Assembly: GCA_030765605.1 (NCBI GenBank)
Contig: JAVCCG010000139.1
Coordinates: 1 to 25,238 of the forward strand
DNA: 25,238 nt
Origin: Candidatus Alcyoniella australis
Lineage (GTDB): Bacteria > Lernaellota > Lernaellaia > JAVCCG01 > Alcyoniellaceae
Reading direction: 5' to 3'
Below, piece after piece: positions 3,655-25,238 of the stretch. The notes beneath the pieces were generated by a model, which saw only the letters and a program-made list of their open reading frames with translations, was not told the DNA's origin and made no database searches. Positions within the stretch are counted from its first letter, which is position 1; each line of letters opens with the position of its first letter. Made by a program: the position numbers and the translations under genes.

Positions 3655-6312
3655 TTACAGGGCGCAGCCTCCACAGGCGTCGTCGTCGTCATCGTCGTCG
3701 CCGCCTCCGCCCGCGATCGTGGCGTCGCCGGTGTTGGAGTAGTCAGAGTCGCCGGCGTCGTCGCTGGTGGCGTAAACGCGATAGAAGTAATGGCCCGCTG
3801 ACAGGCCCGCGTCGCTGTATCCCGTGGCGTCGGCCGCCACCTGCGTCAACTCCTCGAAGTCCTCATCGGAGTCCAGCGAGCGCTCGATCACATAGCCGCC
3901 CTCGGCCGTGGAATTGTCCTCCCAGGTCAGGGCGATCGATGAATCGCCCCCAGCCGCCGCCAGGTTGGTCGGCGCCGCCGGAGTGGTGGTCGCCTCGACC
4001 TCGCTGGTCGCCTCGGAGTCCATCACCACGGTGAAAGCCGTAACCTTGTAGGTGGCGCAGTTGCACTCGGTAAGAGTGGCGTCGACGTACTCGGTGGCGT
4101 CGGCCGCAGTGGCGCCGACCTCGGTGAAGTCGGTCTCGCCCTCAAGCTTACGCCAGACGTGATAGCCGTCCTCGCCGTTGGAATTGTCGTTCCAGCTCAG
4201 TGCGATTTCGGTGTCGGACTGCGCCACGGCGGCCAAGCCGTCCGGCGCCAGCGGCGGAGTACCGGCCACGACCACGTCGGAGTACTGGCTGTAGAGGGCT
4301 CCCTTGGTCGCGCGCACGCGATACTCGTAGGCCGCGGCCTCGTCCATGCCGGAGTCGGTGTAGGTCAGGCTGTCGGCGGCAGCGGTGCCGATCACCGCCC
4401 AGGCGTCCTTGGAACCGGCGGCGCGACGCTCGACCTCGAAGCCGTCCTCATCGGCCGACTGGTCGAACCAGGTCAGCACGATATCTCCGGCCGGAGTACC
4501 GGCACCTGCAAGATTAGCCGGACCGGGGGCCAGGGGCAGCTCGATCGCCGGATCGCCCTGCCACAGATAGATGTGGAAGTTGCGGCCGTAGGTCGAGGTC
4601 TCGCCGTACTGCGTGATCAGCTCGGCCAGCGCGTCGTTGTGCACGTAGCCGATCTCGGTGATTCCCTTCTCCCAGGTCGCGCGGTAGAGGTACTTGTCGT
4701 AGTCGTGGTTGGGAACGGTGTAGCTCGACAGCGTGCTGCCCAGGAACGAGACCGCGCCCTGGTCCTGCAGCACCCAAGCCTCGCCAAAGACCTTGCTCGA
4801 TTCGGAGAGCATCATGTTCAGGCAGGCGATGGAGTAGATCACCGGAGTCAGCGCGCCGTTGGTCAGGGCCAGGACGTCGTCGTTGTCGTAGCTCTCGCCG
4901 GGCACGTCCCACGACCACCATTCGGTCTCCGAGCCGTGGCCGCGATAGTTGATCAGAGCCCGGCCCTCTTCGACCGCGGCGGTGATCGTGGCGTTGGTCA
5001 CGCCGCTGATGTGGCCGTAGGCGGTCTGGAACACCGGCGGCCACTCGGTGTAGGCGTAGGTGCGGATCTGCTCGGAGCACTCGACGTACTTGCCCGGAGC
5101 GCTCTGCTTGTGCGCCATCAACACGGTCTTGGAACGCCACTCGCCGGGAGCGGCCTGGTTGACGAAGTTCTCGATCTTGTCGATCGCCCAGTCGACCTCG
5201 TCCTCGGAGGCCGCGGAGATACGTCCCAGACCCACGTCGGCGTAGGGGTCGGCGCCGGCCAGCCGCGAGTACCAGGTATCGCCCGGGCAGCCAGAGTAAT
5301 ATCCGCAGCCGAACTCGCTGGAGGGGACCAAGTGCCAGGGGATCTCGCCGCTGTCGATGTCGCCCAGCAGCAGCACGTAGTCCAGATCGGCCGGAGTGGC
5401 GCTGTCGTATTCGGCCTGGATGTAGGCCTTGATCGCGGTGTCCGTGGTGCCGGTGGCGCTGGTGTCAACGGCGCTGACGCTTAGTCCCTGGGCGGTCCAC
5501 AGGTCGACCAGCGCCGTAGCGTTGTCGAGGTAGGCGGGCTCGGCGATGATCAGGTAGTCGATGCCGGCCTTGTTCCGCGATTCGTCGATCTCGGTCAGTT
5601 CCATCTGTTCGTAGTTGATCACCAACGAGCGATAGGTGCGGGCCCACTTGGAGTCGACCGCGCTGGGCTCGAAGCGCAGTGCCGAACGCTCGTCAATCCC
5701 CTCGTAGGAGAGCCGCACGGTTACCGAGGTCGTTACCTGCATCGAGTCGCTGGTCGCGTCGTAGCGTAGCGGCGCGAAGCTCAGAGTGACCACGCGCAGG
5801 TCGCGCAGGATCGAGGGCTCGGAGAGGCTGACCAGCTCGGCCGGATAGAGCTCGGGCAGACTGTAGCCAGCGGGCTCGAAGTCGAAGTCCACGGGCGTCT
5901 GATCGTCGGTGGTCGGGGTCTGGAACGGGAAGGGCAGGATGCCCTCGATCACGTTCTGTTCGACCTCGAGCACCTCGACCTGCACGCCGCTGCCGGCCGG
6001 AATGGCGACCATCTCGCGGATCAGCGGCAACTCGGGCCAGCCGATCTGCTGGGTCATGCCCTCACCGGGGATATTAAGCCAGGTGAACAGCGGTCCGCCC
6101 ACGTCCACATGGCTGGCGTAGACGCCGGGAACCTGGATCTCGATCACGGTCTCATAAGCATTGTGCGATAGCACCGAGACGCTGGGATCGACTTGAGGGC
6201 TGCCCTCGTCCAGCCGCAGAAAGCCTGCACTCTGGGCCGATACTCCGCCGGCCATCAGCGCGATACATAACGTCGAAAGCACAAGGATAAGCAAATGGGT
6301 CTTTCCACTCAT
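3655..6312 (-). CDS. Secreted gingipain-type (C25) cysteine peptidase with three Fn3 domains and Asp/Cys tail
   Basis: An 885-residue exported peptidase. Residues 1-26 are a signal peptide (basic start, LLILVLSTLCIALMAGG core, likely cut after VSA). Residues 30-235 look like the gingipain propeptide region. The catalytic domain (about 250-595) has YLIIAEPAYLD, LLLGDID, INYRGHGSE with the catalytic His H459, and YSIACLNM with the nucleophile Cys C497, then the typical FLGSTLSS and LWQGDPAIEL segments. Three fibronectin type III domains follow at about 597-687, 688-778 and 779-867. The protein ends with Gly, seven Asp (872-878) and ACGGCAL. There is no C-terminal membrane helix, no basic tail and no obvious type IX secretion domain. 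AAGGA lies about seven bases before the ATG. It is a single-gene unit between ftsZ and the regulator, with its own terminator. Family is secure; substrate and final location are unknown. Confidence 0.93.
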   Translation of the reverse strand: MSGKTHLLILVLSTLCIALMAGGVSAQSAGFLRLDEGSPQVDPSVSVLSHNAYETVIEIQVPGVYASHVDVGGPLFTWLNIPGEGMTQQIGWPELPLIREMVAIPAGSGVQVEVLEVEQNVIEGILPFPFQTPTTDDQTPVDFDFEPAGYSLPELYPAELVSLSEPSILRDLRVVTLSFAPLRYDATSDSMQVTTSVTVRLSYEGIDERSALRFEPSAVDSKWARTYRSLVINYEQMELTEIDESRNKAGIDYLIIAEPAYLDNATALVDLWTAQGLSVSAVDTSATGTTDTAIKAYIQAEYDSATPADLDYVLLLGDIDSGEIPWHLVPSSEFGCGYYSGCPGDTWYSRLAGADPYADVGLGRISAASEDEVDWAIDKIENFVNQAAPGEWRSKTVLMAHKQSAPGKYVECSEQIRTYAYTEWPPVFQTAYGHISGVTNATITAAVEEGRALINYRGHGSETEWWSWDVPGESYDNDDVLALTNGALTPVIYSIACLNMMLSESSKVFGEAWVLQDQGAVSFLGSTLSSYTVPNHDYDKYLYRATWEKGITEIGYVHNDALAELITQYGETSTYGRNFHIYLWQGDPAIELPLAPGPANLAGAGTPAGDIVLTWFDQSADEDGFEVERRAAGSKDAWAVIGTAAADSLTYTDSGMDEAAAYEYRVRATKGALYSQYSDVVVAGTPPLAPDGLAAVAQSDTEIALSWNDNSNGEDGYHVWRKLEGETDFTEVGATAADATEYVDATLTECNCATYKVTAFTVVMDSEATSEVEATTTPAAPTNLAAAGGDSSIALTWEDNSTAEGGYVIERSLDSDEDFEELTQVAADATGYSDAGLSAGHYFYRVYATSDDAGDSDYSNTGDATIAGGGGDDDDDDDACGGCAL

Positions 6313-6425
6313 GGTAATTTCCTTTTTTGCCTCGTTATTCGATTATGGAGCGCGTGAATAGGCTAACAGCATCCGCGCAATAGTTAAAGCCTCGAACAAG
6401 GGCTCGGATTATCTTGGAAATATGA

Positions 6426-6454
6426 ATTATAGCGCAAGATTGCGGCCATTGAAG
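6426..6454 (-). promoter_or_regulatory. Candidate promoter for the C25 peptidase gene
   Basis: A consensus TATAAT at 6426-6431 on the minus strand lies about 114 bases before the peptidase start. The -35 position 17 bases upstream reads CTTCAA, a weak match. It is the only strong -10 box I see between the ftsZ terminator and the peptidase gene. The leader of about 100 bases shows nothing further I can name. Confidence 0.4.
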
Positions 6455-6489
6455 CGCCGATTGCGTGCCCCTGCTTCAAAAAGGAAGGA

Positions 6490-6529
6490 GGGGTCCGCCC
6501 CTGAAATTGCGCCCCCAGGGACGGACCCT
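6490..6529. repeat. Long imperfect palindrome, REP-like
   Basis: Arms GGGTCCGCCCCTG (6491-6503) and CAGGGACGGACCC (6516-6528) pair over 13 positions with one mismatch, which becomes a G-U pair in minus-strand RNA; the loop is 12 bases. The flanks are non-coding and the CAGGGACGGACCC type of arm resembles the dispersed REP palindromes linked to REP-associated tyrosine transposases. On the minus strand a TTCCTTTTT run lies 9 bases beyond, so it could also be a back-up terminator for ftsZ. Confidence 0.5.
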
Positions 6530-6542
6530 TACCAAGTGAGGA

Positions 6543-6568
6543 ATAAAAGCGGGAATAGAACTCCCGCT
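6543..6568 (-). terminator. Likely intrinsic terminator of the dcw operon after ftsZ
   Basis: The stem AGCGGGA/TCCCGCT with a seven-base loop is followed on the minus strand by TTTTATTCC. It starts 43 bases after the ftsZ stop codon. The stem is short, so termination may be partial, perhaps helped by the larger palindrome just downstream. Confidence 0.65.
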
Positions 6569-6611: not shown

Positions 6612-7805
6612 TCAGTCGGCCTTGCGCCTGATGAACGTCGGAATGTCGTACTCATCCTCATCAGCGCGCGGCCTGGCGCTGGGCCGAACCGGGGTGCTAA
6701 CCGCGACCTTGGACTGCGGTACGTAAGCCTGCTCGATCACCTCGGGCCGCTGGACCTCGGGCTCCTCGGGCCGGCGCTGAAATTTCAACCGCTCGCGGCG
6801 CGACAGCGCGTTGCTCAGGTACGTCACTTGCTCCTGGGTCTGTTCGAGCTGCTCGACCTGATCAAAGCCGGTGGCGATCACCGTGATGCGCATCTGATCC
6901 TGCATCCGCTCGTCGATCACCGCGCCGAAGATGATGTTGGCACCCGGATCCGCGGCCTCCTGAATCATCTCCGAGGCTTCGCTGACCTCGGCCAGGGTCA
7001 GGTCGTGTCCGCCGGTGACGTTGATCAGCACGCCCTTGGCGCCGTCGATGGCGATGTTTTCCAGCAGCGGCGAGCTGATCGCGGCCTGGGCCGCGTCGAT
7101 GGCGCGGGTCGAGCCCGAGGCCACGCCGGTCCCCATCAGCGCCAGTCCCATGCCGCGCATGATCGTGCGCACGTCGGCCAGGTCGAGGTTGATCACGCCG
7201 GGAACGACGATCAAATCGGAGATCGACTGGACGGCCTGGAGCAGGATCTCGTCGGCGCGCTTGAACGCGTCGAGCATCGTCATGTCCTTGCCCGCGAGGT
7301 TGATCAGCTTTTGGTTGGGGATCGTGATCAGCGTATCGACGTACTGTCGAAGCTTGTCGATCCCCTCCTCGGCCTGCCGCATCCGACGCGAGCCCTCGAA
7401 CAGGAACGGCTTGGTGACCACCGCCACGGTCAGCGCATCGGTCTCGCGCGCCAGCTCGGCGATGATCGGCGCCGCGCCCGTGCCCGTGCCGCCGCCCATC
7501 CCGGCGGTGATGAACACCATGTCGGTGTCCTCCAGCGCCTTGACCAGCTCGTCACGGCTGTTGATCGCAGCCTCGCATCCGACCTCGGGATTGCCCCCAG
7601 CCCCCAGGCCGCTGCCGAGCTGAACCGTCTGTTCGGCCCGCGAACTGAGCAGCGCCTGCTGGTCGGTGTTCGTGGCGATAAAGCGCACGCCCGCCATTCC
7701 GGCGCTGACCATCGTGTTGACGGCGTTGCCGCCGCCGCCCCCGACGCCGACCACCTTGATCGTCGCCTTTTGCTTGTCCGAGACTTGCTCGACGAAGTTA
7801 AACAT
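6612..7805 (-). CDS. ftsZ: Cell division GTPase FtsZ
   Basis: A 397-residue tubulin-like GTPase that polymerises into the division ring on the cytoplasmic face of the membrane. The glycine-rich start of the GTPase domain ([13 protein letters not shown], 18-30) and the tubulin signature GGGTGTG (104-110) are intact, as is the T7-loop region NLDLADV needed for hydrolysis. After a variable Pro/Arg-rich linker (about 330-380), the protein ends with [12 protein letters not shown], the conserved C-terminal peptide that binds FtsA and other partners. The length is usual. GGAGG lies ten bases before the ATG. It is the last gene of the dcw cluster, separated from ftsA by an unusually long 46-base gap containing a hairpin, and followed by a terminator. 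Confidence 0.98.
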
Positions 7806-7828
7806 CCCTATGCCTCCAAACGCTTTTC

Positions 7829-7849
7829 AACGGGTCGGCGCGACCCGTT
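7829..7849 (-). other. Hairpin in the ftsA-ftsZ spacer
   Basis: A perfect nine-base-pair stem (AACGGGTCG with CGACCCGTT) and three-base loop begins two bases after the ftsA stop and ends well before the ftsZ ribosome site. No T-run follows, so it is not a standard terminator. It could stabilise or process the message and so adjust FtsZ output relative to upstream genes. Confidence 0.6.
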
Positions 7850-7851
7850 TG

Positions 7852-9105
7852 TCAACTAATGAAATCCTTGATCCACTCACGCATCCGCGACCACACCCCG
7901 TCGAACGTTTGACGGTCGCGAATACGAAACTTGGCCCCCTCTTCGGCGTCGATTCCGTAGGCCACCAGCCCCACGGCCGTGGCGAACTGCGGGCCGTTGA
8001 CCACGTCGGTCAGCCCGCCGACGTTGATCGGCTTGCCCACGCGCACCGGGCAGTTGAAGATCCCCTCGGCGACCTCGATCATCCCGGGCATGTTCGAGGC
8101 TCCGCCGGTGAGAACCATTCCCGCCGGAACGCGCTCGGTCAGGCCGACCTTCTCCAGCTCGCGCTGCACCAGCAGGAAGATCTCCTCCACACGCTGCTCG
8201 ATGATCTCGCACAGGATCTGGCGCGAGACCACGCGCGGTTTGCGGCCGCCCACGGTCGGCACCTCCACCGCCTCCTTGGAGTTGACCAGCTTGGTGGTGG
8301 CGCAGCCGTAGCGGATCTTCAGCTCCTCGGCCGAGGGTTGCGCCGGCGTGCGCAGCCCCAGGGCGATGTCGTTGGTAATGTGCGCTCCGCCCAGTGCCAG
8401 CACCGCCGAGTGCCGCAGCGTGCCGCCGATAAACACCGCCAGGTCCGAGGTCCCGCCGCCGATGTCGAGCAGCGCCACGCCCAATTCCTTCTCCTCCTCG
8501 TCGAGCACGCCGTAGGAACTGGCCAGCGGCTCGAGCACGATGTCCATCACGTTCAGCCCGGTCTGGTTGCAGCACTTGATGATGTTGGCCGCCGAGGCCA
8601 CGGCGCCGGTGACGATGTGGCAATTGACCTCCAGCCGCACGCCACGCATGCCCACCGGGTCGTTCACGCCGTCCTGCTGGTCGACCTTGAACCCGTTGGG
8701 GATCACGTGAATCACCTCGCGGTCCATCGGAATCGCCACGGCCTTGGCCGCCTCGATTACCCGCCCGACGTCGCGCGCATGGACTTCCTTGTCGCGGATC
8801 GCGATCACGCCGTGGCTGTTGAACCCGCGGATGTGACCGCCGGCGATGCCGACGAACACGCTGACGATGTCGCAGCCGGCCATCAGTTCGGCCTCCTCGA
8901 CCGCCTTGCGGATCGAGGCCACCGTGCTCTCGATGTTGATCACCACGCCCTTGCGCAATCCCCTGCTCGGGGTGGTGCCGATGCCGACGATCTCGATTCG
9001 CGGCCGAGAGGAATCCCCTTCGTTGTCCACGAGCTGGCCAACGACCGTGCAGACCTTGGTCGTGCCGATGTCCAGCCCGACGAGGATTTCGTCGCCTCGC
9101 CTCAT
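7852..9105 (-). CDS. ftsA: Cell division protein FtsA
   Basis: A 417-residue actin-like ATPase that tethers FtsZ filaments to the membrane and recruits later division proteins. Visible motifs are the phosphate-1 loop VGLDIGTTKVCTVVG (9-23), phosphate-2 LLDIGGGTSDLAVF and the adenosine motif GMVLTGGASNMPGM. The last 14 residues (VWSRMREWIKDFIS) form the amphipathic membrane-targeting helix typical of FtsA. Its start overlaps the ftsQ stop by ATGA, with GGGGGGAGA immediately upstream, implying coupled translation. Length is normal. Confidence 0.97.
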   Translation of the reverse strand: MRRGDEILVGLDIGTTKVCTVVGQLVDNEGDSSRPRIEIVGIGTTPSRGLRKGVVINIESTVASIRKAVEEAELMAGCDIVSVFVGIAGGHIRGFNSHGVIAIRDKEVHARDVGRVIEAAKAVAIPMDREVIHVIPNGFKVDQQDGVNDPVGMRGVRLEVNCHIVTGAVASAANIIKCCNQTGLNVMDIVLEPLASSYGVLDEEEKELGVALLDIGGGTSDLAVFIGGTLRHSAVLALGGAHITNDIALGLRTPAQPSAEELKIRYGCATTKLVNSKEAVEVPTVGGRKPRVVSRQILCEIIEQRVEEIFLLVQRELEKVGLTERVPAGMVLTGGASNMPGMIEVAEGIFNCPVRVGKPINVGGLTDVVNGPQFATAVGLVAYGIDAEEGAKFRIRDRQTFDGVWSRMREWIKDFIS

Positions 9106-9947
9106 CTTCTCCCCCCCGTTGTTTTCAGCCTGATGAACGCCCGCTGGGGCACTGAGACGTCGGTCCAGCTTAGTCGCGCTGCCCGCGATCCCAGGGCCGC
9201 GTGAAGCGCCTCGAGCCGCTCGAGCTTTTCAGCGAATCCGCCGCGACCCATCTCGATCCAGATGCCGTGGTCCAGAGTGACCATCGACAACCCGCGCACT
9301 GGGTCGTAATGCACCTCGCTCAAGTCCGACAGCTCGCTTTCATCGCTGAGCTGGGCCACGCGAATCAGCTCGACCGCCTCGGCCAGGCTGAACAGCGCCT
9401 CGCTCTGGTTTGCGGCAAAGTCCGCCTCGCGCAGGCCGCTGATCAGGATGAAGTCATGGCTCTCCCCGGGCTCGACCTCCTTGAACAACATCCCCTGCGG
9501 ATTGACGTAATAGTCCTGTTCCATCCGCGCTACGGCGAGCACCTGTTGCTCGACAACGTCGACGATCAGCCGGTCGGGCAGCTCGCGCGCCACGCGCGCA
9601 TCCTCAATCCAGTGATTGCGTTGCAGCCGTTCGCGCAGTTCCTGTAGGTCGACGTCGAACAGGTGCTGATCAGCACTTAGCCCCAGCAGTCCGATCACCT
9701 CCGTGCGCGGCACGTGACGCAGGCCGCTGATCCTGACGTCGCGCACGCGGAACAGTTCGCCGGTGGCCGCGGCCAGGCCGGCCCAGCCGACCAGCGCCAA
9801 GATCAGCACCGTGGGCACCGCCTTACGCATAAACGGCCAGAAGCCCTCGTGCAGGTCGCGCAGCAGACCGCGTACCCGGGAGCGCAGCCGGAATTTGGCG
9901 CGCTTGGCCCGCAGTTGTCTGCGCTTGTGTTCGCGGAAATCGAACAC
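9102..9947 (-). CDS. ftsQ: Cell division protein FtsQ/DivIB
   Basis: A 281-residue bitopic inner-membrane protein that links FtsA/FtsZ to the septal wall synthases through FtsL. It has a highly basic cytoplasmic N-terminus (1-42), one membrane helix at about 43-62 (AVPTVLILALVGWAGLAA), then a periplasmic POTRA domain at about 66-135 (FRVRDVRISGLRHVP, ending in ARELPDRLIVDVVEQ) and the beta domain. The start is GTG, supported by GGGGAG eight bases upstream; it lies four bases after the ddl stop. A low-similarity family, but the architecture and position between ddl and ftsA make the call firm. Confidence 0.95.
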   Translation of the reverse strand: MFDFREHKRRQLRAKRAKFRLRSRVRGLLRDLHEGFWPFMRKAVPTVLILALVGWAGLAAATGELFRVRDVRISGLRHVPRTEVIGLLGLSADQHLFDVDLQELRERLQRNHWIEDARVARELPDRLIVDVVEQQVLAVARMEQDYYVNPQGMLFKEVEPGESHDFILISGLREADFAANQSEALFSLAEAVELIRVAQLSDESELSDLSEVHYDPVRGLSMVTLDHGIWIEMGRGGFAEKLERLEALHAALGSRAARLSWTDVSVPQRAFIRLKTTGGRR

Positions 9948-9951
9948 GCGT

Positions 9952-10875
9952 TTAGCTCCCCACTTTCAGACCCGCGCCGAGCAGGATGCGCTCGACCAGG
10001 TCGTCGAACTCGATGCCCGCGGCCCGCGCGATCTTGGGCAGCAGGCTGGTCTGGGTCAGTCCCGGCAGCGTGTTGACCTCGAGCAGCCACCAGCCGTTGT
10101 TCCCATCAAGGATCAAGTCGACCCGCGTGCCGCCGGCGCAACCCAGCGCCGTATGCGCGCGCCGCGCCAGGTCCAGCGCCTCGAGTTCGCGCTCGGGCTC
10201 GATCGGTGCCGGACAGAGGTAGTCGGTCATGCCCTGGGTGTACTTGGCCTCGTAGTTGTAGAACTCAAGCTTGGGCCGCACCTCGACCGTGCCCAGGGCC
10301 TCGCCGTCGAGCACGCCGACGTTGATCTCGCGTCCCTTGATGTAGCGCTCGAGGATCACCCTTCGATCAAAGCGCAACGCCTCCTCCAGCGCCGCTTTGA
10401 GCTGCCCAGCCTCGCGCACGATCGAGATCCCCATTGACGAGCCCTCGGTGGTCGGCTTGACCACCAGCGGCAGCTCCAACGGCAGGTCATCGAGGGACAC
10501 TTCCTCGGCCGACCCGGGCTCGATCAGCGCCCACTGCGGCACGGGCAAGTCCGCGGCCTGGAACAGCCGTTTGCTGATCACCTTATCCATCGCCACGGCG
10601 CTGGCGGTCACGCCCGAGCCGGTGTAGGGGATGCGCATCAGCTCGAGCAGGCCCTGGACGCAGCCGTCCTCGCCCCATTTGCCATGCAGCGCGTTGTAGA
10701 CCAGCTCCACGCCGTGGCGCTCAAGCTGCAACGCCAGGTCGCGTCCCACATCGATGCGCACCACCTCGTAGCCCTTGCGCTGCAGCGCATCGCACACCGC
10801 AGCGCCGGTGTTGAACGAGACCTCCCGTTCGCTGCTGGGACCGCCGAGCAATACCCCGACCCGTTTGCCGCTCAT
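9952..10875 (-). CDS. ddl: D-alanine--D-alanine ligase
   Basis: A 307-residue cytoplasmic ATP-grasp ligase that joins two D-Ala for addition by MurF. It starts MSGKRVGVLLGGPSSEREVS, which includes the substrate-binding SxE motif, and has ALHGKWGEDG, VVKPTTEGSSMGIS, ILERYIKGREINVGVL and the C-terminal metal and phosphate region LLEVNTLPGLTQTSLLP. The tyrosine in the omega-loop segment FYNYEAKY points to D-Ala rather than D-lactate as second substrate. The usual PGMT reads PGLT here. The start at 10875 overlaps the murB stop by ATGA; a longer in-frame form to 10905 would run into murB and lacks support. Confidence 0.96.
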   Translation of the reverse strand: MSGKRVGVLLGGPSSEREVSFNTGAAVCDALQRKGYEVVRIDVGRDLALQLERHGVELVYNALHGKWGEDGCVQGLLELMRIPYTGSGVTASAVAMDKVISKRLFQAADLPVPQWALIEPGSAEEVSLDDLPLELPLVVKPTTEGSSMGISIVREAGQLKAALEEALRFDRRVILERYIKGREINVGVLDGEALGTVEVRPKLEFYNYEAKYTQGMTDYLCPAPIEPERELEALDLARRAHTALGCAGGTRVDLILDGNNGWWLLEVNTLPGLTQTSLLPKIARAAGIEFDDLVERILLGAGLKVGS

Positions 10876-11795
10876 GCGAAATCTCCCAACAGCTTGACCT
10901 CGCACTCGAGGGTCAGACCGAAGCTCTGACGCACGCGCTGCCTGACCAGCCCGATCAGCTCGTAGATGTCGTTGGCGCTACCGTTTTTATCGTTGACGAT
11001 AAAATTGGCGTGATGCTCGCTGACCTGCGCACCGCCGACCCGCAGCCCCTTGCAGCCCGCGGTCTCGATCAGCCGCGCCGCGTGCTCGCCCGGCGGGTTG
11101 CGAAACACCGAGCCCGCGCAAGGTAGGTACTGCGGATGATGCTCGGCGCGCCAGGCGAGCATCGCCTCGACTTTGCGCGCCACGTCTTGGCGCTCGCCCT
11201 TTTGCAACTCCATACGGCAGGAGAGGATCACCGCTCCCGCGGGCAGCTCGACCGCGCGGTAGGAGAAGTCGACCTCTTCGCGCGCCAGCCATTGCGCACT
11301 GCCCTCGGCGTTCATCAGCCGCAGTTCGCGCACCAAGTCGTAGATCTCGCCGTCGCGCGTGCCCGCGTTCATCCGTAGCGCCCCACCGAGGTTGCCCGGA
11401 ATTCCGGCGGCGAACTCAAATCCGGTCCAACCGTGCTCCAGGCACAGCTCGGTCAGCCGCCTGACCGAACACCCCGCGTCCACGCGCAACAGCACGCCCC
11501 TGTCTGATTGCGACTCGAGCTCGATCGCGCCCATGCGCTCGCGGATCAGCACTGCCAACGCCGGCAGGCCGCTGTCCGCCACCAGCACGTTGGAACAGGC
11601 GCCGAGAACCTGTAGCTCCATCCCGGCCTCGGCCGCAGCACGCAGCACAAAAGCCAACTCGTCCTCGTCGTCCGGTTCGACCAGTCCCCAGGCCGGACCG
11701 CCCACGCCAAAGGTGGTGTAATCCGACAGCAGCTCGTTGCGCTTGAAGCGCTCGCCCAGCCGCCTGGCAAGCAGTTTTGCCAGCTGTTCGCTCAT
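10872..11795 (-). CDS. murB: UDP-N-acetylenolpyruvoylglucosamine reductase
   Basis: A 307-residue FAD enzyme that reduces enolpyruvyl-UDP-GlcNAc to UDP-MurNAc in the cytoplasm. Motifs are TTFGVGGPA near the start, GIPGNLGGALRMNAG in the FAD domain, AGSVFRNPPG with the catalytic Ser, and GCKGLRVGGAQVSEHHANFIVN near the end. The short length and AGSVFRNP motif fit type II MurB. The usual FAD-loop LGxGSN reads LGACSN, a mild variation. It lies between murC and ddl with ATGA overlaps on both sides; this position is common outside the enterobacteria. Confidence 0.95.
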   Translation of the reverse strand: MSEQLAKLLARRLGERFKRNELLSDYTTFGVGGPAWGLVEPDDEDELAFVLRAAAEAGMELQVLGACSNVLVADSGLPALAVLIRERMGAIELESQSDRGVLLRVDAGCSVRRLTELCLEHGWTGFEFAAGIPGNLGGALRMNAGTRDGEIYDLVRELRLMNAEGSAQWLAREEVDFSYRAVELPAGAVILSCRMELQKGERQDVARKVEAMLAWRAEHHPQYLPCAGSVFRNPPGEHAARLIETAGCKGLRVGGAQVSEHHANFIVNDKNGSANDIYELIGLVRQRVRQSFGLTLECEVKLLGDFA

Positions 11796-16785: not shown

Positions 16786-16787
16786 CG

Positions 16788-17864
16788 TCACCTCAGCTTG
16801 AGCGTGGCCAGCGACATCAGCGCCAGGATGATGCTGATGATCCAGAAGCGCACAATCACCTTGGGCTCGGCCCAGCCCTTGAGCTCGAAGTGGTGGTGGA
16901 TCGGCGCCATCTTGAACACTCGTTTGCCCGTGAGCTTGAAGCTGCCGACCTGCACGATCACCGACAGTGTCTCGATTACGAACACCCCGCCCATCAACGT
17001 CAGCAGCAGCTCGTTCTTGGCGATCACCGCCACCGTGCCCAGGGCGCCGCCCAGGCTCAGCGAGCCCACGTCGCCCATGAACACCTGAGCCGGGTAGGTG
17101 TTGAACCACAGGAAACCCAGCCCCGCGCCGACCATCGCCGAGCAGACGATCGCGAGGTTGCCCGCGTCCTTGATCTGCGCGAACTGCAAATAGTTGGCGA
17201 TCTCGTAGTGCCCCACGGCGTAGGTGATCAGCGCCAATGTCCCGGCGCAGGTTATCACCGGGCCGATCGCCAGGCCGTCGAGGCCGTCGGTGAGGTTGAC
17301 CGCGTTGCTCGTGGCGACGATCACCAGCACGGCGAACGGGATGTAGATCAGTCCGATGTCCGGGGTGAAGCTCTTGAAAAACGGCACCGAGATTTGCGTG
17401 GTGAAGTCGGGCTGGGAGTAGACCAGCACGACCGCGCCCAGGGCGAAAACCACCTGCCAGACCAGCTTCTGCCGCGGCGAGACCCCCTTGGGATCGTGGT
17501 GTACGACCTTGATGTAGTCGTCGATGAATCCCAGCGCGCCGTAGCCCGCCACGACCAGCAGCACCGCCCAGGTGTAGTAGCAGGTCAGGTCGCACCACAG
17601 CAGCGCGGGCACCACGATCGAGACCAGGATCAGCGTGCCGCCCATGGTCGGCGTGCCGGCCTTGACCAGGTGCGACTGCGGCCCGTCGTCGCGCACGGTC
17701 TGGCCGATCCCAAGCTTGGTCAGCCAACGGATGATCGGCGGGCCGCAGATGAAGCTGATCGCCATCGCGGTCAGCGCCGCGACCACCGAGCGGAAGGTGA
17801 TGTAGCGCACCACGTTCAGCGGTGTGAACTCGTCGATGAAGTGTGTCAGCAGGTGGTAGAGCAT
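16788..17864 (-). CDS. mraY: Phospho-N-acetylmuramoyl-pentapeptide transferase
   Basis: A 358-residue integral membrane enzyme with about ten helices that transfers phospho-MurNAc-pentapeptide onto undecaprenyl phosphate, making lipid I. Catalytic motifs are GTPTMGGTL near the start, GFIDDYIKV with the paired Asp, [13 protein letters not shown], and the cytoplasmic [17 protein letters not shown] loop with three His. The start MLYHLLTHF at 17864 shares one base with the murF stop (TAATG). Length matches the family. Confidence 0.97.
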
Positions 17865-19267
17865 TACAGCGCCTTCTTCAGTCCCCTGACGATCAGTTCC
17901 ATACGCATCCCGCGGCTGCCCTTGACCAGCACCACGTCGCCGGGCTCGAGGTTGTCGGCCAGCCACTGCACAGCAGCCTCGCGGTCTTTGATCACGCGCA
18001 CCGCGCGCTTGGACATCCCGGCCTGGATTGCGGCGTCGGCAGCGTCCCTGGCGTGCTCGCCCAGCAGCAGCAGCCGGTCGACCTTGTGCTGGCCCGCGGC
18101 CACGCCGATCTGCTGATGGGCCGCGCGGGCGTGGCTGCCCAGCTCGAGCATCTCGCCGAGCACGGCCACGGTGCGCCGGTTCTCGCCCAGGGTCTGCAGC
18201 ACTTCCAGGGCGGCGAGCATCGAGCGCGGATTGGCGTTGTAGGTGTCGTCGATCAGCCGTACCTTGCGCCGCAGCTCGACGATCCGCGAACGCATCGCCT
18301 GGGGCTTGAACGCCTCGAGGCTGTCGCGGATCAGCAGCGGCGACGCGCCGAGCACGTGGGCCGCCGCAGCCGCGGCCAACGCGTTGTACACGCTGTGCGC
18401 TCCGTAGGTCGAAAGGCTCAGTTCGAGTGTCTCGCCACCGATTTGCAGCTTGGCGGTAATCCCGTCGAACCCCAGGTTGCGGATCTGCGTGGCGCGTACG
18501 TCGGCGTCGCGGTGCTTACCGAAGGTCACGACCTTGAAGTCGCGGCCGCGCACCAGCAGCATCGCCCGCCTATCGTCGCGGTTGATCACTGCGGTGTTGC
18601 GCGGGCCGAAGCGGTCGAACAGCTCACCCTTGGCGCGCGCCACGGCGGCCAGGGTCTTGAGCGTCTCAAGGTGCACCGGGCTGATGTTGGTCACCACGCC
18701 GATGTCGGGCGAGGCGATCTGCGCCAGGCGCGAGATCTCGCCCACGCGATTCATCCCCATCTCGAGCACCGCCGCGGGGTGGTCGGGCTTGAGGTTGAAC
18801 ACGGTCAGCGGCAGGCCGATCAGGTTGTTGAAGTTGCCGCGCGTGCGCAGCACCTCGCGGCCGTAATGCTGCTCGAGCACCGCGGCCAGCATCTCCTTGC
18901 AAGTGGTCTTGCCCACCGAGCCGGTGATTCCCACCACCGGGATGCGTGTCAAGGCCAGGATCTGTCGCGCGATCTCGCCCAGGGCGTACAGCGTATCGTC
19001 GACCTCGAGCACGTGCATGCGGCAGCCCGCGACCCGCGAGGCCTCGCCGCGATGCACCATCAGTCCGCCGGCGCCGCGCTCGAGCGCCTTGTCGAGGAAC
19101 TTGTGTCCGTCGAAATTCGGCCCCTTGAGCGCGACGAACAGCTCGCCGGGCTTGAGCGTGCGCGTGTCGGTGCTGATGCCGGAGAACTCCTTGCGGCGCC
19201 CCTTGATCGCGGGACGCGCGTTGGCGGCGCCGACGATCAGTCCGATGTTGAAGTAGCTCGATCTCAT
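17864..19267 (-). CDS. murF: UDP-MurNAc-tripeptide--D-alanyl-D-alanine ligase
   Basis: A 467-residue cytoplasmic Mur ligase that adds the D-Ala-D-Ala made by Ddl. The N-terminal domain has [18 protein letters not shown] (30-47); the P-loop is [14 protein letters not shown] (113-126), the GSVGKTT form typical of Mur[23 protein letters not shown] and [10 protein letters not shown] follow in order. It starts by ATGA overlap with murE and runs into mraY by a single base. Confidence 0.97.
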
Positions 19268-20790
19268 CTGGGCCCTTCCGCTGCGACCAATGCTCCGGCC
19301 GCCTGTTCACGGTCGTCGAAATGCCGCTTATCGCGGCCGACGATCTGGTAGTCCTCGTGCCCCTTGCCCGCGATCAGCACCACGTCCCCGGCCTGCGCCA
19401 ACTCCACCGCCGTGCGGATCGCCTCGGCGCGGTCAACGATCACGCAGAACGCCTTTCCCGCGCCCGATCCGACCTGCTGCGGCTGCCTGCGCTCGACGCC
19501 CAGGGCCTCGATGCCCGGAACGATCTGTCCGATGATCTCCAGCGGGTCTTCGGTGCGCGGATTGTCCGAGGTGACGATCGTCAGGTCCGAACCCTGGGCC
19601 GCGGCGCGCCCCATCAGCGGGCGCTTGCCCCGATCGCGGTCGCCGCCGCAGCCGAAGACCGTGATCACCCGGCCGCGCGCCAGGTTGCGCACGGCCGCGA
19701 GCACGTTGCTAAGCGCGCCGTCGGTATGTGCATAGTCGACCAGCACCAGCGGATCGCGCGAGCCGGGCACCGGCTCGAGCCGTCCGGGAACCGCGGCCAG
19801 CCCATCGGCGCCGCGCAGTACCTCGCGCATCGACAGCCCCAGACTCAGGGCCAGGCCCGCGGCCACGGCCAGGTTCGGGCCGACGAACGCGCCGAGCAGC
19901 GGACTGTGCACCTCGTACGACTCGTTGCTGCGGCGAAAAGTTCCCTGCAGGCCGTCCAGGCCGTAGCGCGCGTCGCTCAGCGCCAGGTCGGCGTCCAGCG
20001 CATTGACGGCGCTGACCCGCAGCACCGGAACCAGGCTGCGCCGCGCCAGGTCGAGCCCCTCGTCCGAGTCGATCAGGATCACCGCCTTGGACGCCTTGGA
20101 CGAGGCCGGCAGCAGCCGGGTGAACAGCAGCGCCTTGGCCTCGAGGTAGTCGCGCATCGAGCCGTGGAAATCCAGGTGGTCGCGGCTGAGATTGGTGAAC
20201 GCGCCGACGTCGAAACGGCAGTGGTTGACGCGGCCCAGCTCGAGCCCGTGGCTCGAGACCTCGACGATCACGTCCTGGACCCCGGCGCGGGCCATCTGGT
20301 CGATGGTGCGCGCGAGCAGCGCCGGGTTGGGCGTGGTGTTCGGCGCCTCTAAGCTGCGGCCGCCGTAGCGGTAGTTGACCGTGCCGATCACGCCCACGTT
20401 GCGGCCGGCCTGCTCGAGCATCGCCTCGAGTTGGTAGACCACCGAGGTCTTGCCGTTGGTGCCGGTGATGCCGATCAGCCGCACGCGCGCGGTGGGATCG
20501 CCGTAGAACCTGTGGGCGATCAGCGCCAGAGCCGCGTGGGTGTCGGCCACCGCGGCGCAGGGAACGTCGTCGCGCAACAGCTCGGGCCGCTGCAGCAGCA
20601 GTGCCGCGGCGCCGGCGTCGATCGCCGCCTGCACGAAGTCGTGGCCGTCGACCACGCTGCCGGGCAACGCCACGAAAAGGCAGCCCGGGCCGACCCGCCG
20701 CGAGTCGAACTCCAGGGCCTCGATCTCCACCGACTGGTCGCCGCGAACGTCGATAGTCTCGATTTTGTGAAGCAGCTGGTCAAAGGTCAT
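19264..20790 (-). CDS. murE: UDP-MurNAc-dipeptide--meso-diaminopimelate ligase
   Basis: A 508-residue cytoplasmic Mur ligase that adds the third residue of the stem peptide. The P-loop is GITGTNGKTS (107-116); the likely carbamylated lysine is K219 in YLEAKALLF; VDYAHTDGAL and FGCGGDRDRGKR follow. The motif DNPR (409-412, in TSDNPRTEDP) is the meso-diaminopimelate-recognition signature, so the wall should be of the DAP type. The KGHEDYQ motif near the end is intact. ATGA overlaps link it to ftsI and murF. Confidence 0.97.
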   Translation of the reverse strand: MTFDQLLHKIETIDVRGDQSVEIEALEFDSRRVGPGCLFVALPGSVVDGHDFVQAAIDAGAAALLLQRPELLRDDVPCAAVADTHAALALIAHRFYGDPTARVRLIGITGTNGKTSVVYQLEAMLEQAGRNVGVIGTVNYRYGGRSLEAPNTTPNPALLARTIDQMARAGVQDVIVEVSSHGLELGRVNHCRFDVGAFTNLSRDHLDFHGSMRDYLEAKALLFTRLLPASSKASKAVILIDSDEGLDLARRSLVPVLRVSAVNALDADLALSDARYGLDGLQGTFRRSNESYEVHSPLLGAFVGPNLAVAAGLALSLGLSMREVLRGADGLAAVPGRLEPVPGSRDPLVLVDYAHTDGALSNVLAAVRNLARGRVITVFGCGGDRDRGKRPLMGRAAAQGSDLTIVTSDNPRTEDPLEIIGQIVPGIEALGVERRQPQQVGSGAGKAFCVIVDRAEAIRTAVELAQAGDVVLIAGKGHEDYQIVGRDKRHFDDREQAAGALVAAEGPR

Positions 20791-22811
20791 CGCTGCTCCC
20801 CCGCCGGGTCGGCGAAGCGCACCAGCACTCGCTCACCGCGGGCGACCATGCTGCCGGGTCCGGGGACCTGGGATACGCAGACGCCGCTCCCCTCGGTTTT
20901 GAGCCGGATGCCGCTACGCTCGGCCAGGGCGTAGGCTTGTCGCACGGGCAACCCGGTGAAATCGGGCAGTCCGCCGTCCACCAGCTGCGGAACATCGGCC
21001 CGCGCAAGTTGCACTTCCTGGTCGGCTCCGGGCTCGACCTGGCCGGGGATCATTCGCAAGTAGGCCATGGTCTCGTCGGCCACCGCCCGGAACACCGGCG
21101 CGGCGATCACGCCGCCGTAGAGCGATCCGGCCGGCTGCTGCGGCGCGTCGAAAACCACGGCCACGGCGATCCGCGGGTCCTCGGCCGGAACCGTGCCGAT
21201 AAACGTGGCGACCACGTCGTCGGAATAGCCGCGACGATCGGTATACGGCTTCTCTGCGGTGCCGGTCTTGCCCGCCACCCGGCAGTAGGGCAGCGCGGCC
21301 AGGGTGCCGGTGCCCTCATCGTCGGTGACCGAGACCAATGCGCGCAGCACCTCGCGGCATGTCTCCTCGCTGATTACGTGCGAGCGGATTGTCAGGTGGC
21401 CGCGGTAGATCTCGCGCCCCTCGGGCGAGACCACGCTGTGCACGATGTAGGGCTTGAGCAGTACGCCGCCGTTGACCGAGGCGCTCAACGCGGTGACCAA
21501 CTGCATCGCGGTCACCGACAGTCCCTGTCCAAAGCTGTGAGTCGCCAGGTCGACTTTGGCCCAACGCTCCAACGAGCGCAGCACGCCCGCGGCCTCGTGA
21601 GGCATGTCCACGCCCGTGGGTCGGCCGAAGCCGAAATCGGTCAACGTGCAGTGCAGCAGTTCCGGGCCGAGTCGTTCGGCGATTTTGGTCGCGCCGATGT
21701 TGCTCGAGATCTTGACCACGTCGCGCGCCGACACCTTGCCGTGGGGGTGCACGTCGTTAATGCGATTGCGGGCGAACACGTATTTGCCGTTCTCGCAATC
21801 GATCAGCTCTTCGGGATCAACAGCTCCGGACTCGATCGCCGCGGCGTAAGTAAAGGTCTTCATCACCGAGCCGGGCTCGAAGCGGTCGCACAGCACGCGG
21901 TTGCGCCTGTACTCCGGCGGGAACGCGCCGGCCACGTTGGGATTGAAGGTCGGCCGGTTGACCAGGGCCAGGATCTCGCCGGTGTGCACGTCGATCATCA
22001 CCAACATCGCCGCGCGCGCCTCGGAAGCGACGAACGCTTTATCCAGCTCGCGCTCGGCGATCGCCTGGATCTTGCTGTCCAAGGTCAGCCGCAGCGTGGC
22101 GCCGGGCTCGGAGCCGACCACCTGCATCCCCTCGGGAAAGTAGATCCGGCCCAACGCGTCGCGATGTCCGATCAGTCGGCCGGGTCGGCCGCGCAGCTGC
22201 TGGTCAAACGACTGTTCCAGGCCCGAGAGGCCCTTGGAGTCGATGTCCACGAATCCCAGCACGTGGGCCGCCAAGGTATTCTGGGGGTATTGGCGGTGGC
22301 TCTCCTTATGCAGGTGCACCCCCTGGACTCCCAGCTCCTCGACGATCCGCCGCACCATCTGCGCCTCGTGACGGTCGATGTGGCGCTTGATCCAGGCGAA
22401 ACGCGCCGGTCGGCCGCGCACCTCGCGTTCGAGTCGGGCCGCCACGTCCTCGCGCTGCAAATCGAGCACCAGCGCCAGCTGCCGCGCCAGCTCGGGCTTG
22501 AGCTCGTCGGGGAGCATCAGCGGATCGACGAACAGCGACTCCTGGTCGATATTGTGCGCCAGCACCTCGCCGTTGCGATCGAGGATCGGCCCGCGCGGGC
22601 AGGTCAGTTCGATGTTCGAGCGCTGCATCTGGTCGGCGCGCTGCTTGAGGTCCTCGCTGTCGAGCACACACAGCCACAGCGCGCGGCCCAGCAGCACTGC
22701 CAGGCCGAGCACGAACAGTGCGGAAGTGAGCTTGATCCGCACCACGACCCAGTCGCGGCCGCGGGTGTTGCGCGCCATTTTGCGCGCGCGCGGCAGGTTG
22801 CGCGGACTCAT
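20787..22811 (-). CDS. ftsI: Septal transpeptidase FtsI (PBP3) with C-terminal PASTA domain
   Basis: A 674-residue class B penicillin-binding protein that cross-links septal peptidoglycan with FtsW. It has a short basic cytoplasmic tail, one membrane helix at about 27-48, a dimerisation domain (CPRGPILDRNGEVLA at 71-85), and the transpeptidase domain with SxxK at S315-K318 (EPGSVMKTF), SSN at 369-371 and KTG at 515-517. A single PASTA-like domain (about 606-667, PDFTGLPVRQAYALAERSG) follows; enterobacterial FtsI lacks this. The start overlaps the ftsL stop by ATGA. The sporulation PBP SpoVD shares this layout, but context supports division. Confidence 0.96.
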   Translation of the reverse strand: MSPRNLPRARKMARNTRGRDWVVVRIKLTSALFVLGLAVLLGRALWLCVLDSEDLKQRADQMQRSNIELTCPRGPILDRNGEVLAHNIDQESLFVDPLMLPDELKPELARQLALVLDLQREDVAARLEREVRGRPARFAWIKRHIDRHEAQMVRRIVEELGVQGVHLHKESHRQYPQNTLAAHVLGFVDIDSKGLSGLEQSFDQQLRGRPGRLIGHRDALGRIYFPEGMQVVGSEPGATLRLTLDSKIQAIAERELDKAFVASEARAAMLVMIDVHTGEILALVNRPTFNPNVAGAFPPEYRRNRVLCDRFEPGSVMKTFTYAAAIESGAVDPEELIDCENGKYVFARNRINDVHPHGKVSARDVVKISSNIGATKIAERLGPELLHCTLTDFGFGRPTGVDMPHEAAGVLRSLERWAKVDLATHSFGQGLSVTAMQLVTALSASVNGGVLLKPYIVHSVVSPEGREIYRGHLTIRSHVISEETCREVLRALVSVTDDEGTGTLAALPYCRVAGKTGTAEKPYTDRRGYSDDVVATFIGTVPAEDPRIAVAVVFDAPQQPAGSLYGGVIAAPVFRAVADETMAYLRMIPGQVEPGADQEVQLARADVPQLVDGGLPDFTGLPVRQAYALAERSGIRLKTEGSGVCVSQVPGPGSMVARGERVLVRFADPAGEQR

Positions 22812-23140
22812 CGCGGCACCCGCAGCACTTGCTCGTTGGCCGGCGCGGACATCTTGAACTCGGCGGCCTTGGGCGCCAGTCTGCCCGGCGAGCGTAGCGA
22901 ACCCAGCTCGCTGACCAGTTCGTCGTTACGGTAGGCCAGCGCGCTCTGCAACTCATGCTCGACCTCGATGGCGTAGCCGGTATGCACCACCAGCTGCCGC
23001 GTCCAGACCACCAGCAGCAGACAGGCGGTGAACGCCACCACCAGCACGATGGTCGAGAACAGGCCCATGGCCCGGCGCAGACCCTTGTGGCGCGTCACCT
23101 GCTTGGCCAGCAGCGAGACCGGGTAGGTCGTCTGGCTCAT
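22808..23140 (-). CDS. ftsL: Cell division protein FtsL
   Basis: A 110-residue bitopic membrane protein. A basic cytoplasmic N-terminus (to about 25) leads into one membrane helix at about 27-46 (LFSTIVLVVAFTACLLLVVW), then a periplasmic helical, coiled-coil-like segment (about 52-82) that would bind FtsQ and FtsB partners. Sequence conservation is low in this family, so the call rests on size, topology and position between rsmH and ftsI. The ATG at 23140 overlaps the rsmH stop by ATGA; an in-frame extension to 23305 is the off-frame of rsmH. No ftsB is in the window. Confidence 0.9.
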   Translation of the reverse strand: MSQTTYPVSLLAKQVTRHKGLRRAMGLFSTIVLVVAFTACLLLVVWTRQLVVHTGYAIEVEHELQSALAYRNDELVSELGSLRSPGRLAPKAAEFKMSAPANEQVLRVPR

Positions 23141-24090
23141 GCCGCCTGATCTTCCAGCCGCCGGGCGGCCCGCAGCCGCGCACTGCGGCTGCGCGGGTTG
23201 CGCTCGATCTCGCTCTGGTCGGGCCTGATCGGCCGACGGGTGATCAATTCCATGCTTGGCAGATGGCCGCAGGTGCACACCGGCTGCGCCGGAGGACAGA
23301 GGCATCCGGAGCTGTGCCGCCGCAGGGCCTGCTTGACCAGCCGGTCCTCCAGCGAGTGGAACGAAATCACGGCCAACACGCCGCCGGGAGCCAGCAGCTC
23401 GGGCGCGTCGGCGAGAAAGCTGCGCAGCGAGCCGAGCTCATCGTTGACCGCGATGCGCAGCCCCTGGAAGGTGCGCGTGGCCGGGTCGATACGCTGGGGA
23501 CCGCGTTTGCCCGGGATCGCGCTACGCACGATTTGGGCCAATCGTCCGGTGCTGCGGATCGGAGCCGCATCGCGCTCGCGTACGATGGCGCGGGCCACGC
23601 GCGACGCGTAGCGTTCCTCGCCGTACTCGGCAATGATCCGCCGCAGTTGATCGTAGGGCTCTTGGTTGACCAGGTCGGCGGCGCTGCGGCCTGAGCCGGT
23701 GCACAGCCGCATGTCCAACGGGCCGTCGTGGGAAAACGAGAATCCGCGCTCGGGGTCGTCCAGTTGGATGGAGCTTAGACCCAGGTCCGCCAGAATCCCG
23801 ACGAACCTGGGCCAGCTCCGATTGCAGGAGATACGTGACAGCTCATCCAGACGGCAGTGCACCAGCTCAACCCGCGAGCCGAAGGGCTCGAGCCGTCGAC
23901 CGGCTCGGGCCAACGCCTCGGGATCAGCGTCGCAGGCGACCAATCGTCCGTCCGGCGCGCTTCCTCGCAACATCGCCTCCGAGTGCCCCCCCGCTCCCAC
24001 GGTGGCATCGAGAAACACCGACCCCGGGGCGGGCTTGATAAGTTCGATTGTCTGTTCCAACAAAACAGGGAGGTGAATCCCCGTAGACAT
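23137..24090 (-). CDS. rsmH: 16S rRNA (cytosine-1402-N4)-methyltransferase
   Basis: A 317-residue S-adenosylmethionine-dependent methyltransferase that modifies C1402 of 16S rRNA in the decoding centre. It begins MSTGIHLPVLLEQ, with the SAM-binding loop LDATVGAGGHSEAML (27-41), LADLGLSSIQLDDPERGFSF, the helical insertion rich in YGEERYASRVARAI, and VISFHSLEDRLVK near the C-terminus. It is the second gene of the dcw operon, three bases after mraZ. No good ribosome site precedes it, so coupling to mraZ translation is likely. Confidence 0.97.
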   Translation of the reverse strand: MSTGIHLPVLLEQTIELIKPAPGSVFLDATVGAGGHSEAMLRGSAPDGRLVACDADPEALARAGRRLEPFGSRVELVHCRLDELSRISCNRSWPRFVGILADLGLSSIQLDDPERGFSFSHDGPLDMRLCTGSGRSAADLVNQEPYDQLRRIIAEYGEERYASRVARAIVRERDAAPIRSTGRLAQIVRSAIPGKRGPQRIDPATRTFQGLRIAVNDELGSLRSFLADAPELLAPGGVLAVISFHSLEDRLVKQALRRHSSGCLCPPAQPVCTCGHLPSMELITRRPIRPDQSEIERNPRSRSARLRAARRLEDQAA

Positions 24091-24093
24091 GAG

Positions 24094-24546
24094 CTAAAGC
24101 ACGTCGGCCAACGCGGCCTTGATTTGCTTGAAACTTTTACGAGCCTTCTGGCTGACCTCTTGCCAAGCCTCTTTGCTCCAAATTTGAATCGTGTCCCCAG
24201 CCCCAATGATCACGATTTCCTTGTCCAAGCCGGTCGCCTCGCGCAATGAGGGCGGAACCAGAATTCGGCCCTGACGATCGATGCTCACCTCTTGGGCGCC
24301 AGAGATGTAATACAGCTTGAACATTTCAACGTTCTCATCGAACTGTGGTTGACGCTCCAGCTTCTGCACCAGCTCGTCCCAACGATCCGGCGTGTACCCC
24401 ACCAACACCTGTTCCTCTGCCTTCTGGTCGTTGGTCAGCACGATACGGTCGAAGTTGTTCTGGCTGAGGATCTCGCGGAAACTCACGGGAATACTCGTTC
24501 TTCCCTTGGGATCCAGCGTGTGATAATAACGTCCTGCGAATTTCAT
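24094..24546 (-). CDS. mraZ: Transcriptional regulator MraZ
   Basis: A 150-residue DNA-binding protein with two SpoVT/AbrB-like swapped-hairpin repeats, at about 5-50 and 80-125; each carries the hallmark DxxGR (DPKGR at 12-16 and DRQGR at 90-94). MraZ forms a ring-shaped oligomer that binds direct repeats before its own gene and controls the dcw operon. The 5' region here holds three GTGGTA boxes and a strong promoter, fitting autoregulation. No classical ribosome site precedes the ATG; the nearest purine-rich sequence, AAGTGGT, is itself part of the third box. Confidence 0.97.
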   Translation of the reverse strand: MKFAGRYYHTLDPKGRTSIPVSFREILSQNNFDRIVLTNDQKAEEQVLVGYTPDRWDELVQKLERQPQFDENVEMFKLYYISGAQEVSIDRQGRILVPPSLREATGLDKEIVIIGAGDTIQIWSKEAWQEVSQKARKSFKQIKAALADVL

Positions 24547-24715: not shown

Positions 24716-24780
24716 CTTCAGCAGCCGTCTATCTGTGGTGGGATAAATCTGTTGGTATTCAGACCGTTAACACGTAAAAG

Positions 24781-24840: not shown

Positions 24841-24887
24841 AGCACGACCGTGCCCTGCTCGCCCGAACTGCCTCAATCTCCTGAGAA

Positions 24888-24905
24888 ATACCACCCGATA
24901 CCACC
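24888..24905 (-). promoter_or_regulatory. Distal pair of GTGGTA boxes (possible second MraZ site)
   Basis: GGTGGTAT appears twice with an exact 10-base period, the same hexamer and spacing as the proximal mraZ boxes, about 310 bases further upstream. It lies just beyond the terminator of the neighbouring gene. Binding of MraZ here is inferred from the matching motif and period only. Confidence 0.5.
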
Positions 24906-24936
24906 TGCCGAGCCTGCCGGACGGCTGAATCGTATT

Positions 24937-24973
24937 AAAAAGAAAAGGCCCGTGCCCCCTGGGGCACGGGCCT
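24937..24973 (-). terminator. Intrinsic terminator of the Asp-tail protein gene
   Basis: A perfect stem of at least ten base pairs (GGCCCGTGCC with GGCACGGGCC) is followed on the minus strand by TTTTCTTTTTAAT. It is about 40 bases past the stop codon at 25015 and isolates the dcw cluster from the upstream gene. Confidence 0.93.
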
Positions 24974-25014
24974 AATGACCAAAGTAGTTACGGTCTATTG
25001 TCTGCTATGACTTA

Positions 25015-25238
25015 TCAGCCACAGCATCCGCTGTCGTCGTCGTCGTCATCGTCGTCGTCGTCAACTGCATCGTCGTCGTCAACGTCATCGTCGTCGTCGT
25101 CATCGTCATCGTCGTCGTCGTCGTCATCGTCGTCGCCGCCACCCTCGAGAACCTCGAAAGCGTCAGCCAGGGTGTCGTCACCGTAGGGGTTGGTCAGGGC
25201 CAGGTCGTACAAGCCCAGGTCGGCGCCGGTCAGATCGA
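25015..25238 (-). CDS. C-terminal part of a secreted protein with Asp tract and Cys tail (partial)
   Basis: The reading frame is open to the window edge, so only the last 74 or so residues are seen; the apparent TTG start at 25212 is not a real start. The visible part begins DLTGADLGLYDLALTNPYG and continues DDTLADAFEVLE, the closing strands of an IPT/TIG-like immunoglobulin-fold domain common in surface proteins. After GGG comes a run of Asp, 31 of 34 residues, broken only by VDDDDAV, and the protein ends SGCCG. No membrane helix or basic tail follows. The same design ends the C25 peptidase at 3655. Full-length function cannot be told; a surface or secreted location is inferred from the fold. 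Confidence 0.8.
   Translation of the reverse strand, partial: DLTGADLGLYDLALTNPYGDDTLADAFEVLEGGGDDDDDDDDDDDDDDDDDVDDDDAVDDDDDDDDDDSGCCG
25030..25134. repeat. TCG/TCA trinucleotide repeat encoding the Asp tract
   Basis: About 100 bases of nearly pure TCG and TCA triplets on the plus strand (GAC and GAT codons on the minus strand), interrupted at two places. Mixed Asp codons suggest selection for the amino acid, although slippage could still change length in whole codons. Confidence 0.85.

Follow-up and report, generated by a model that had tools for sequence, protein, structure and literature searches.

Several described C-terminal sorting signals contain Cys, and in JDVT-CTERM, Synergist-CTERM and CGP-CTERM, reportedly treated by Haft in 2024, this Cys is said to be invariant in the signature motif. 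The closest described system for the present case is MYXO-CTERM (TIGR03901, myxosortase MrtX). It is still to be established which enzyme acts on the Cys in MYXO-CTERM-type signals and whether that step takes a helix or a protease; the lipidating enzyme favoured by the myxosortase authors, on independent grounds, is the diacylglyceryl-transferase Lgt (PMC11980579). Here we analysed a stretch of 25,238 nucleotides, the whole of contig JAVCCG010000139.1 of Candidatus Alcyoniella australis (hereafter the window), in which two genes end in a run of Asp, a Cys pair and a stop codon. With a probability of about 0.55, we read these tails as copies of a C-terminal sorting signal spread across the phylum Candidatus Lernaellota, a helix-less relative of MYXO-CTERM whose carriers would be lipidated by a paralog of Lgt, exported by type II secretion and retained at the cell surface. 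The tag itself is real, phylum-wide and new to NCBIfam and Pfam, which currently have no entry marking it, and it is akin to the known Cys-type sorting signals without their helix, tail and protease. In the literature that we covered on Lernaellota and MYXO-CTERM we found no mention of such a tag; an earlier one is possible, as that coverage did not extend to the original Lernaellota paper or to Haft 2024.

The layout of the signal is an N-terminal signal peptide, an exported body, an Asp-rich spacer and [SGA]-G-C-[CG]-[GC]-stop. The two tagged genes of the window comprise the following features:

3655..6312, minus strand: tagged gene encoding a secreted peptidase of family C25 (gingipain type), 885 aa (open reading frame (ORF); Pfam PF01364 2.3e-59, PF08126, PF00041)
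6235..6312, minus strand: Sec signal peptide of the C25 gene, MSGKTHLLILVLSTLCIALMAGGVSA, cut before Q (by eye; same type as in 27/29 tagged ORFs of the genome)
4537..5556, minus strand: Peptidase_C25 domain, residues 253-592 (Pfam)
3700..3711, minus strand: Gly linker GGGG of the C25 gene (sequence)
3679..3699, minus strand: Asp run D7 of the C25 gene (sequence)
3658..3678, minus strand: C-terminal Cys motif ACGGCAL of the C25 gene, a GCCG/GCGC variant, followed by stop TAA at 3655-3657
25015..25236, minus strand: second tagged secreted protein, 3' end only, the 5' part lying past the contig end (contig G000:C139 stops at 25238)
25033..25134, minus strand: Asp run of the second protein, 34 residues, D17-V-D4-AV-D10 (sequence)
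25018..25032, minus strand: C-terminal Cys motif SGCCG of the second protein, followed by stop TGA at 25015-25017

The C25 identity was upheld by the PF01364 match together with the propeptide and fn3 domains, and the protein ends in GGGGDDDDDDDACGGCAL-stop, i.e. GGGG-D7-ACGGCAL-stop. The second tail reads EGGG-D17-V-D4-AV-D10-SGCCG-stop, with 31 Asp among the 34 residues of the run. Its earlier label as a TIG-domain protein was not confirmed, as Pfam gave no match for the 73 residues that lie inside the window.

We searched the genome of the window (G000) for D5-x(0-8)-C-x(0-3)-C and, as a control, for its reverse. The pattern was found at 102 places against 1 for the control; one tail can give overlapping matches, so places outnumber genes. 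From 40 fetched stretches we read 36 distinct tagged gene ends, with the general form (Asp blocks)-[SGA]G-CCG/CGC-stop. The bodies that carry them are unrelated and included S8, C25, C1 and M14 peptidases, Kelch and FG-GAP propellers, PKD, metallophosphoesterase and MopE-type repeats. The most frequent end was SGCCG-stop, and AGCCG, DGCGC, SSCGC, DHCGCGC and ESCCGRL also occurred. Tags were read as ORF ends; a stop-anchored pattern with Cys in last position was dropped, since it missed most tags, many of which end in CCG. In an alignment of 34 tagged proteins of this genome the two terminal Cys were the only invariant columns, at a mean column identity of 11%. Many contigs of the genome (C139, i.e. 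the window end at 25238, and C21, C48, C71, C118, C129, C146 and C155) end ~1 kb or less from a tagged gene, and Asp codon repeats that defeat the assembly are the probable reason; the tag counts are therefore lower bounds.

Export signals were called in every complete ORF of these loci with one simple rule of our own (an AXA-like cut site), not with SignalP. A signal peptide was present in 27 of the 29 tagged ORFs and in 29 of the 99 untagged ones (Fisher 4e-10), while a lipobox was found by the same rule in 0/29 tagged and 7/99 untagged ORFs. One of the two tagged ORFs without a signal peptide (L055, 333 aa) starts with TLVFAGSAVAFDG, which resembles the remnant of a broken signal peptide. 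Judged by their N-termini, tagged proteins are thus predicted to be exported by Sec with removal of the signal peptide.

The tag was found in all seven genomes analysed from the phylum, which is also known as FEN-1099 (in GTDB) and Podoxiota (PMC11382960, PMC13248872). Five other genomes gave 64-126 D5 pattern matches each, against 0 for the reversed control; G001, 99% complete, has 72 tag matches. A further genome (G004), seemingly tagless by the D5 pattern, gave 62 matches to GGNTGYGGNTGY-stop against 10, and its tails end in ...DDDTTPDDDATPDDDSSPASSGGDNSGCGC-stop, with DDDxx repeats, no long Asp run and GCGC-stop kept. The long Asp run is therefore optional and acts as a spacer of variable make-up, whereas a spacer rich in DDD and the final GCGC-stop are found throughout. 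The last Cys occupies the last or last-but-one position in 108 of the 114 tails read across the phylum. In a scan of 84,980 species, which possibly leaves near relatives of the window outside, true gene ends of this type appeared only in FR_14 FEN-1099-1, whose coordinates are identical to those of G003. The pattern D..GC[CG][CG]-stop gave 42 matches against 9 for its reversed control in G000 and 79 against 11 in FR_14; among 18 other genomes (4 of them Myxococcota) it showed no comparable excess. Matches to the Asp/Cys pattern outside the phylum, read in frame, were mostly chance or metal-binding tails: those of L099 (Treponema) and L111 (a rumen proteobacterium) were chance Asp-Cys matches that look like SlyD-type metal-binding tails on cytoplasmic proteins, which are something different.

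Asp runs are of low complexity and variable length, like expanding GAY repeats, and the tails could thus have no function and simply be such repeats ending by chance near Cys. We consider this refuted and highly improbable, given the Cys pair held in the last one or two positions, the export bias, the conservation across the phylum and the reversed-pattern control. The sequence-only reading had proposed, from the two tails of the window, a common tag on unrelated secreted proteins that lacks a membrane helix and a basic tail. Both tails are present, with Asp run, Cys motif and stop read directly in the window, and the search that it suggested for further ends of this type turned up dozens of carriers, far beyond two and in all seven genomes of the phylum. 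The gene ends read directly stop at the motif, nearly all carriers have signal peptides, an enrichment that it had asked to be tested, and no recognisably cytoplasmic protein, the kind of carrier that would have spoken against the proposal, was found among them.

The same reading had set the tag apart from MYXO-CTERM, and in this it was not supported. The Asp run plus GCGC is the pre-helix part of MYXO-CTERM, a signal found at full length in Myxococcota and, in rare cases, in the phylum itself. Four matches outside the phylum were Myxococcota MYXO-CTERM ends with Asp run, GCGC, helix and Arg tail (Nannocystis pusilla, L095, L107 and L136), the Nannocystis pusilla end being DDDDDSGCGC-TQEPSPGAAGLVVLLGAFAARRRRRR-stop; a fifth match of MYXO-CTERM type (L096) has its sequence cut off. 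Within the phylum, TIGR03901 matched 0-4 proteins per genome, and those that we read were full-length signals with a front part as in the tag: DDDDDDDDGCGC-VIGGGADGAGLAFAMLALGLAALAVSLRKKR (abbreviated DDDDDDDDGCGC-VIGGG..LAALAVSLRKKR) in G005, DEDEEEEGCGC-QTAKNGPTSATLIFVLLGMLFLLVARRRA (abbreviated EEEEGCGC-QTAKN..LLVARRRA) in G000 and ACGC-...-VRRRC in G003. A TIGR03901 match on contig C27 of G005 was taken as false, as it maps within an FG-GAP/OmpA protein. Given this common front part, the tag corresponds to the front half of MYXO-CTERM, and its stop appears to sit close to the expected myxosortase cut point.

The C25 protein of the window had matches in 12 of 188 Myxococcota genomes. Six C25-domain homologs have a complete 3' end, and all of them terminate in Cys, a hydrophobic helix and a basic tail, where the protein of the window has the tag. 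TIGR03901 placed two of these six above its cut-off (24.5 and 24.9 bits), one just under it (18.6), one weakly (13.7) and left two unmatched, whose tails were read by eye. NCBIfam matches to M36 'myxosortase-dependent' and 'rhombosortase-dependent' models were not used as cases of such an anchor swap, because they span the PKD segment only.

Because the Cys of the tag come paired, they might instead serve as a disulfide or metal attachment: tagged proteins could be cross-linked among themselves or with a surface partner rich in Cys, or could bind a metal, while the Asp run binds calcium. Every tag has two or three Cys with the pair invariant, and Asp/Cys-rich metal-binding tails are known on SlyD-like proteins, as in the chance matches above. 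The motif is nonetheless that of MYXO-CTERM, whose Cys are thought to be lipidated (PMC11980579), and the membrane-anchoring signal in the place of the tag in the C25 homologs points to anchoring; we regard attachment through a disulfide or a metal as unlikely, though deserving serious consideration. The helix could also be supplied by stop readthrough or a frameshift into a downstream helix-Arg segment, restoring a full MYXO-CTERM. TGA is indeed the most frequent stop (67/102), but TAA (20) and TAG (15) are also used, and a helix-like downstream frame was seen in merely 7, 1 and 3 of the 102 genes for the three frames. We therefore rejected this supply route, which has very little chance of being right.

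CPBP/Rce1 proteases (PF02517), the myxosortase family, were found in six of the seven phylum genomes. The tag-rich G001 has neither a PF02517 CPBP protease nor MYXO-CTERM; myxosortase is therefore not needed for the tag, and CPBP/myxosortase was rejected as the tag-processing enzyme. Secretins were present in all seven genomes, and the GspD equivalog of type II secretion in G000, G001 and G004. As regards Lgt, every genome of the phylum has at least 3 copies. Four Myxococcota-type genomes have 3, 5, 5 and 5, and of 14 others 12 have exactly 1. The copies of the phylum include class A, one per genome and adjoining lspA and ileS, class B in 7/7 genomes and class C in 6/7. Classes B and C form one supported clade (99/98) that is restricted to this phylum, and an alignment with E. 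coli Lgt (5azb) shows that they retain HP[ST]QLYE and the Arg positions. Class B matches PF01790 at 4e-52 and, for G001, TIGR00544 at 122.5 bits against a cut-off of 118.9; in contrast to class A, it is not linked to lspA. By correlation, class B is the best candidate for the tag enzyme.

Class C adjoins a gene of the IspH (LytB)-UbiA prenyltransferase family in three genomes (L205:4285-6030, L207:7107-8921, L209:4061-5302), and the IspH-UbiA fusion was confirmed in L205; this neighbour could hint at an isoprenoid-containing lipid. Separately, a divergent group of Lgt in Myxococcota (L249, L247, L246 and L244), in genomes with 3-5 Lgt, has VHDHPG where the usual core motif would stand and is a candidate for MYXO-CTERM lipidation.

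A dedicated transferase other than Lgt might join the C-terminus to another surface molecule, e.g. a glycolipid or lipopolysaccharide, which is the role of PorU in type IX secretion. PorU (NF033707) belongs to the C25 peptidases, as do some tagged proteins, and there is no evident cleavage partner. The matches to PorU models, however, lie far under the cut-off and are accounted for by the C25 domain. The C-terminal domain of type IX secretion is a beta-sandwich of ~80 residues at the protein end, and the 25 commonest NCBIfam/Pfam families listed for tagged proteins include no such domain, for which no dedicated search was made. We find a transferase of this kind improbable.

The tag is probably a helix-less variant of the Cys-type sorting signals that is lipidated in place. 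Tagged proteins would cross the inner membrane via Sec and lose the signal peptide; since the gene encodes neither helix nor Arg tail, nothing would need to be cut off. One Cys of the exposed terminal pair would then be modified on the periplasmic side, most likely with a lipid by Lgt of class B or C, which we propose because of the kinship to MYXO-CTERM and the Lgt copy number. From MYXO-CTERM biology, the lipidated protein would go through the type II secretion system and be retained at the cell surface. The Asp spacer may lift the body off the membrane and, as a conjecture, could together with calcium bring the tail to anionic lipid; its long unbroken run would be dispensable, as in G004. 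A more specific proposal, that the phylum anchors its secreted proteins through a free C-terminal Cys lipidated by a dedicated Lgt paralog, with neither helix nor sorting protease, we offer only tentatively and at clearly less than even odds.

Several points weigh against lipidation and surface retention. Both are inferred rather than observed directly; a C-terminus without a helix is not kept at the membrane, the site of Lgt action; and a single lipidated Cys would suffice, while tags always carry two or three. The link to multiple Lgt copies is a correlation drawn from a small number of genomes, the extra Myxococcota copies with VHDHPG in the core are not orthologs of classes B and C, and in the gene-neighbourhood search class B or C adjoined a tagged gene at one locus only (L207), about the chance level. 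Finally, TIGR03901, the NCBIfam model of MYXO-CTERM, fails to recognise the tag.

The remaining genes of the window, judged by eye, were ordinary. At 110-3562, beside the tagged C25 gene, lie genes that resemble those for a CRP/FNR regulator, a hybrid cluster protein and a ferredoxin-like protein, a common nitrosative stress set, and 6612-24546 on the minus strand holds an mraZ-mraW-...-ftsA-ftsZ division and cell wall cluster.

This lineage kept the Cys motif and dropped the helix, the tail and, in one genome, the protease, which separates the steps of such sorting. It offers a short list of candidate Cys-modifying enzymes (Lgt of classes B and C), a prediction rule for the surface proteins of an uncultured phylum, and a natural case for learning how such cysteines turn into anchors. 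If a dedicated Lgt paralog does lipidate the tag, lipidation and cleavage would be separate steps in MYXO-CTERM-type sorting, and the missing lipidation enzyme would be identified.

Compared with known systems, the tag would share its proposed chemistry, a lipid placed on Cys by an Lgt-family enzyme, with bacterial lipoproteins (lipobox, Lgt, LspA); its Cys, however, is C-terminal and outside the signal peptide, and tagged ORFs have no lipobox. GlyGly-CTERM/rhombosortase, PEP-CTERM/exosortase and LPXTG/sortase are likewise C-terminal sorting signals of exported proteins, but they have another motif, a helix and a basic tail, none of which the tag has, and no GlyGly-CTERM, LPXTG or PEP-CTERM model was among the families listed for tagged proteins. 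JDVT-CTERM, Synergist-CTERM and CGP-CTERM have an invariant Cys as the tag does, but all reportedly carry a helix and a basic tail. MYXO-CTERM stands nearest. The tag gene differs in stopping at the motif, with no membrane helix or Arg tail, in its long Asp spacer, in often having CC instead of CxC, and in that the CPBP protease is dispensable; nevertheless, both signals are C-terminal, are carried in each genome by dozens of proteins that have signal peptides and are otherwise unrelated, and consist of an acidic or Gly-rich linker followed by a GCGC-type Cys motif, with type II secretion present and full-length forms found in the phylum itself.

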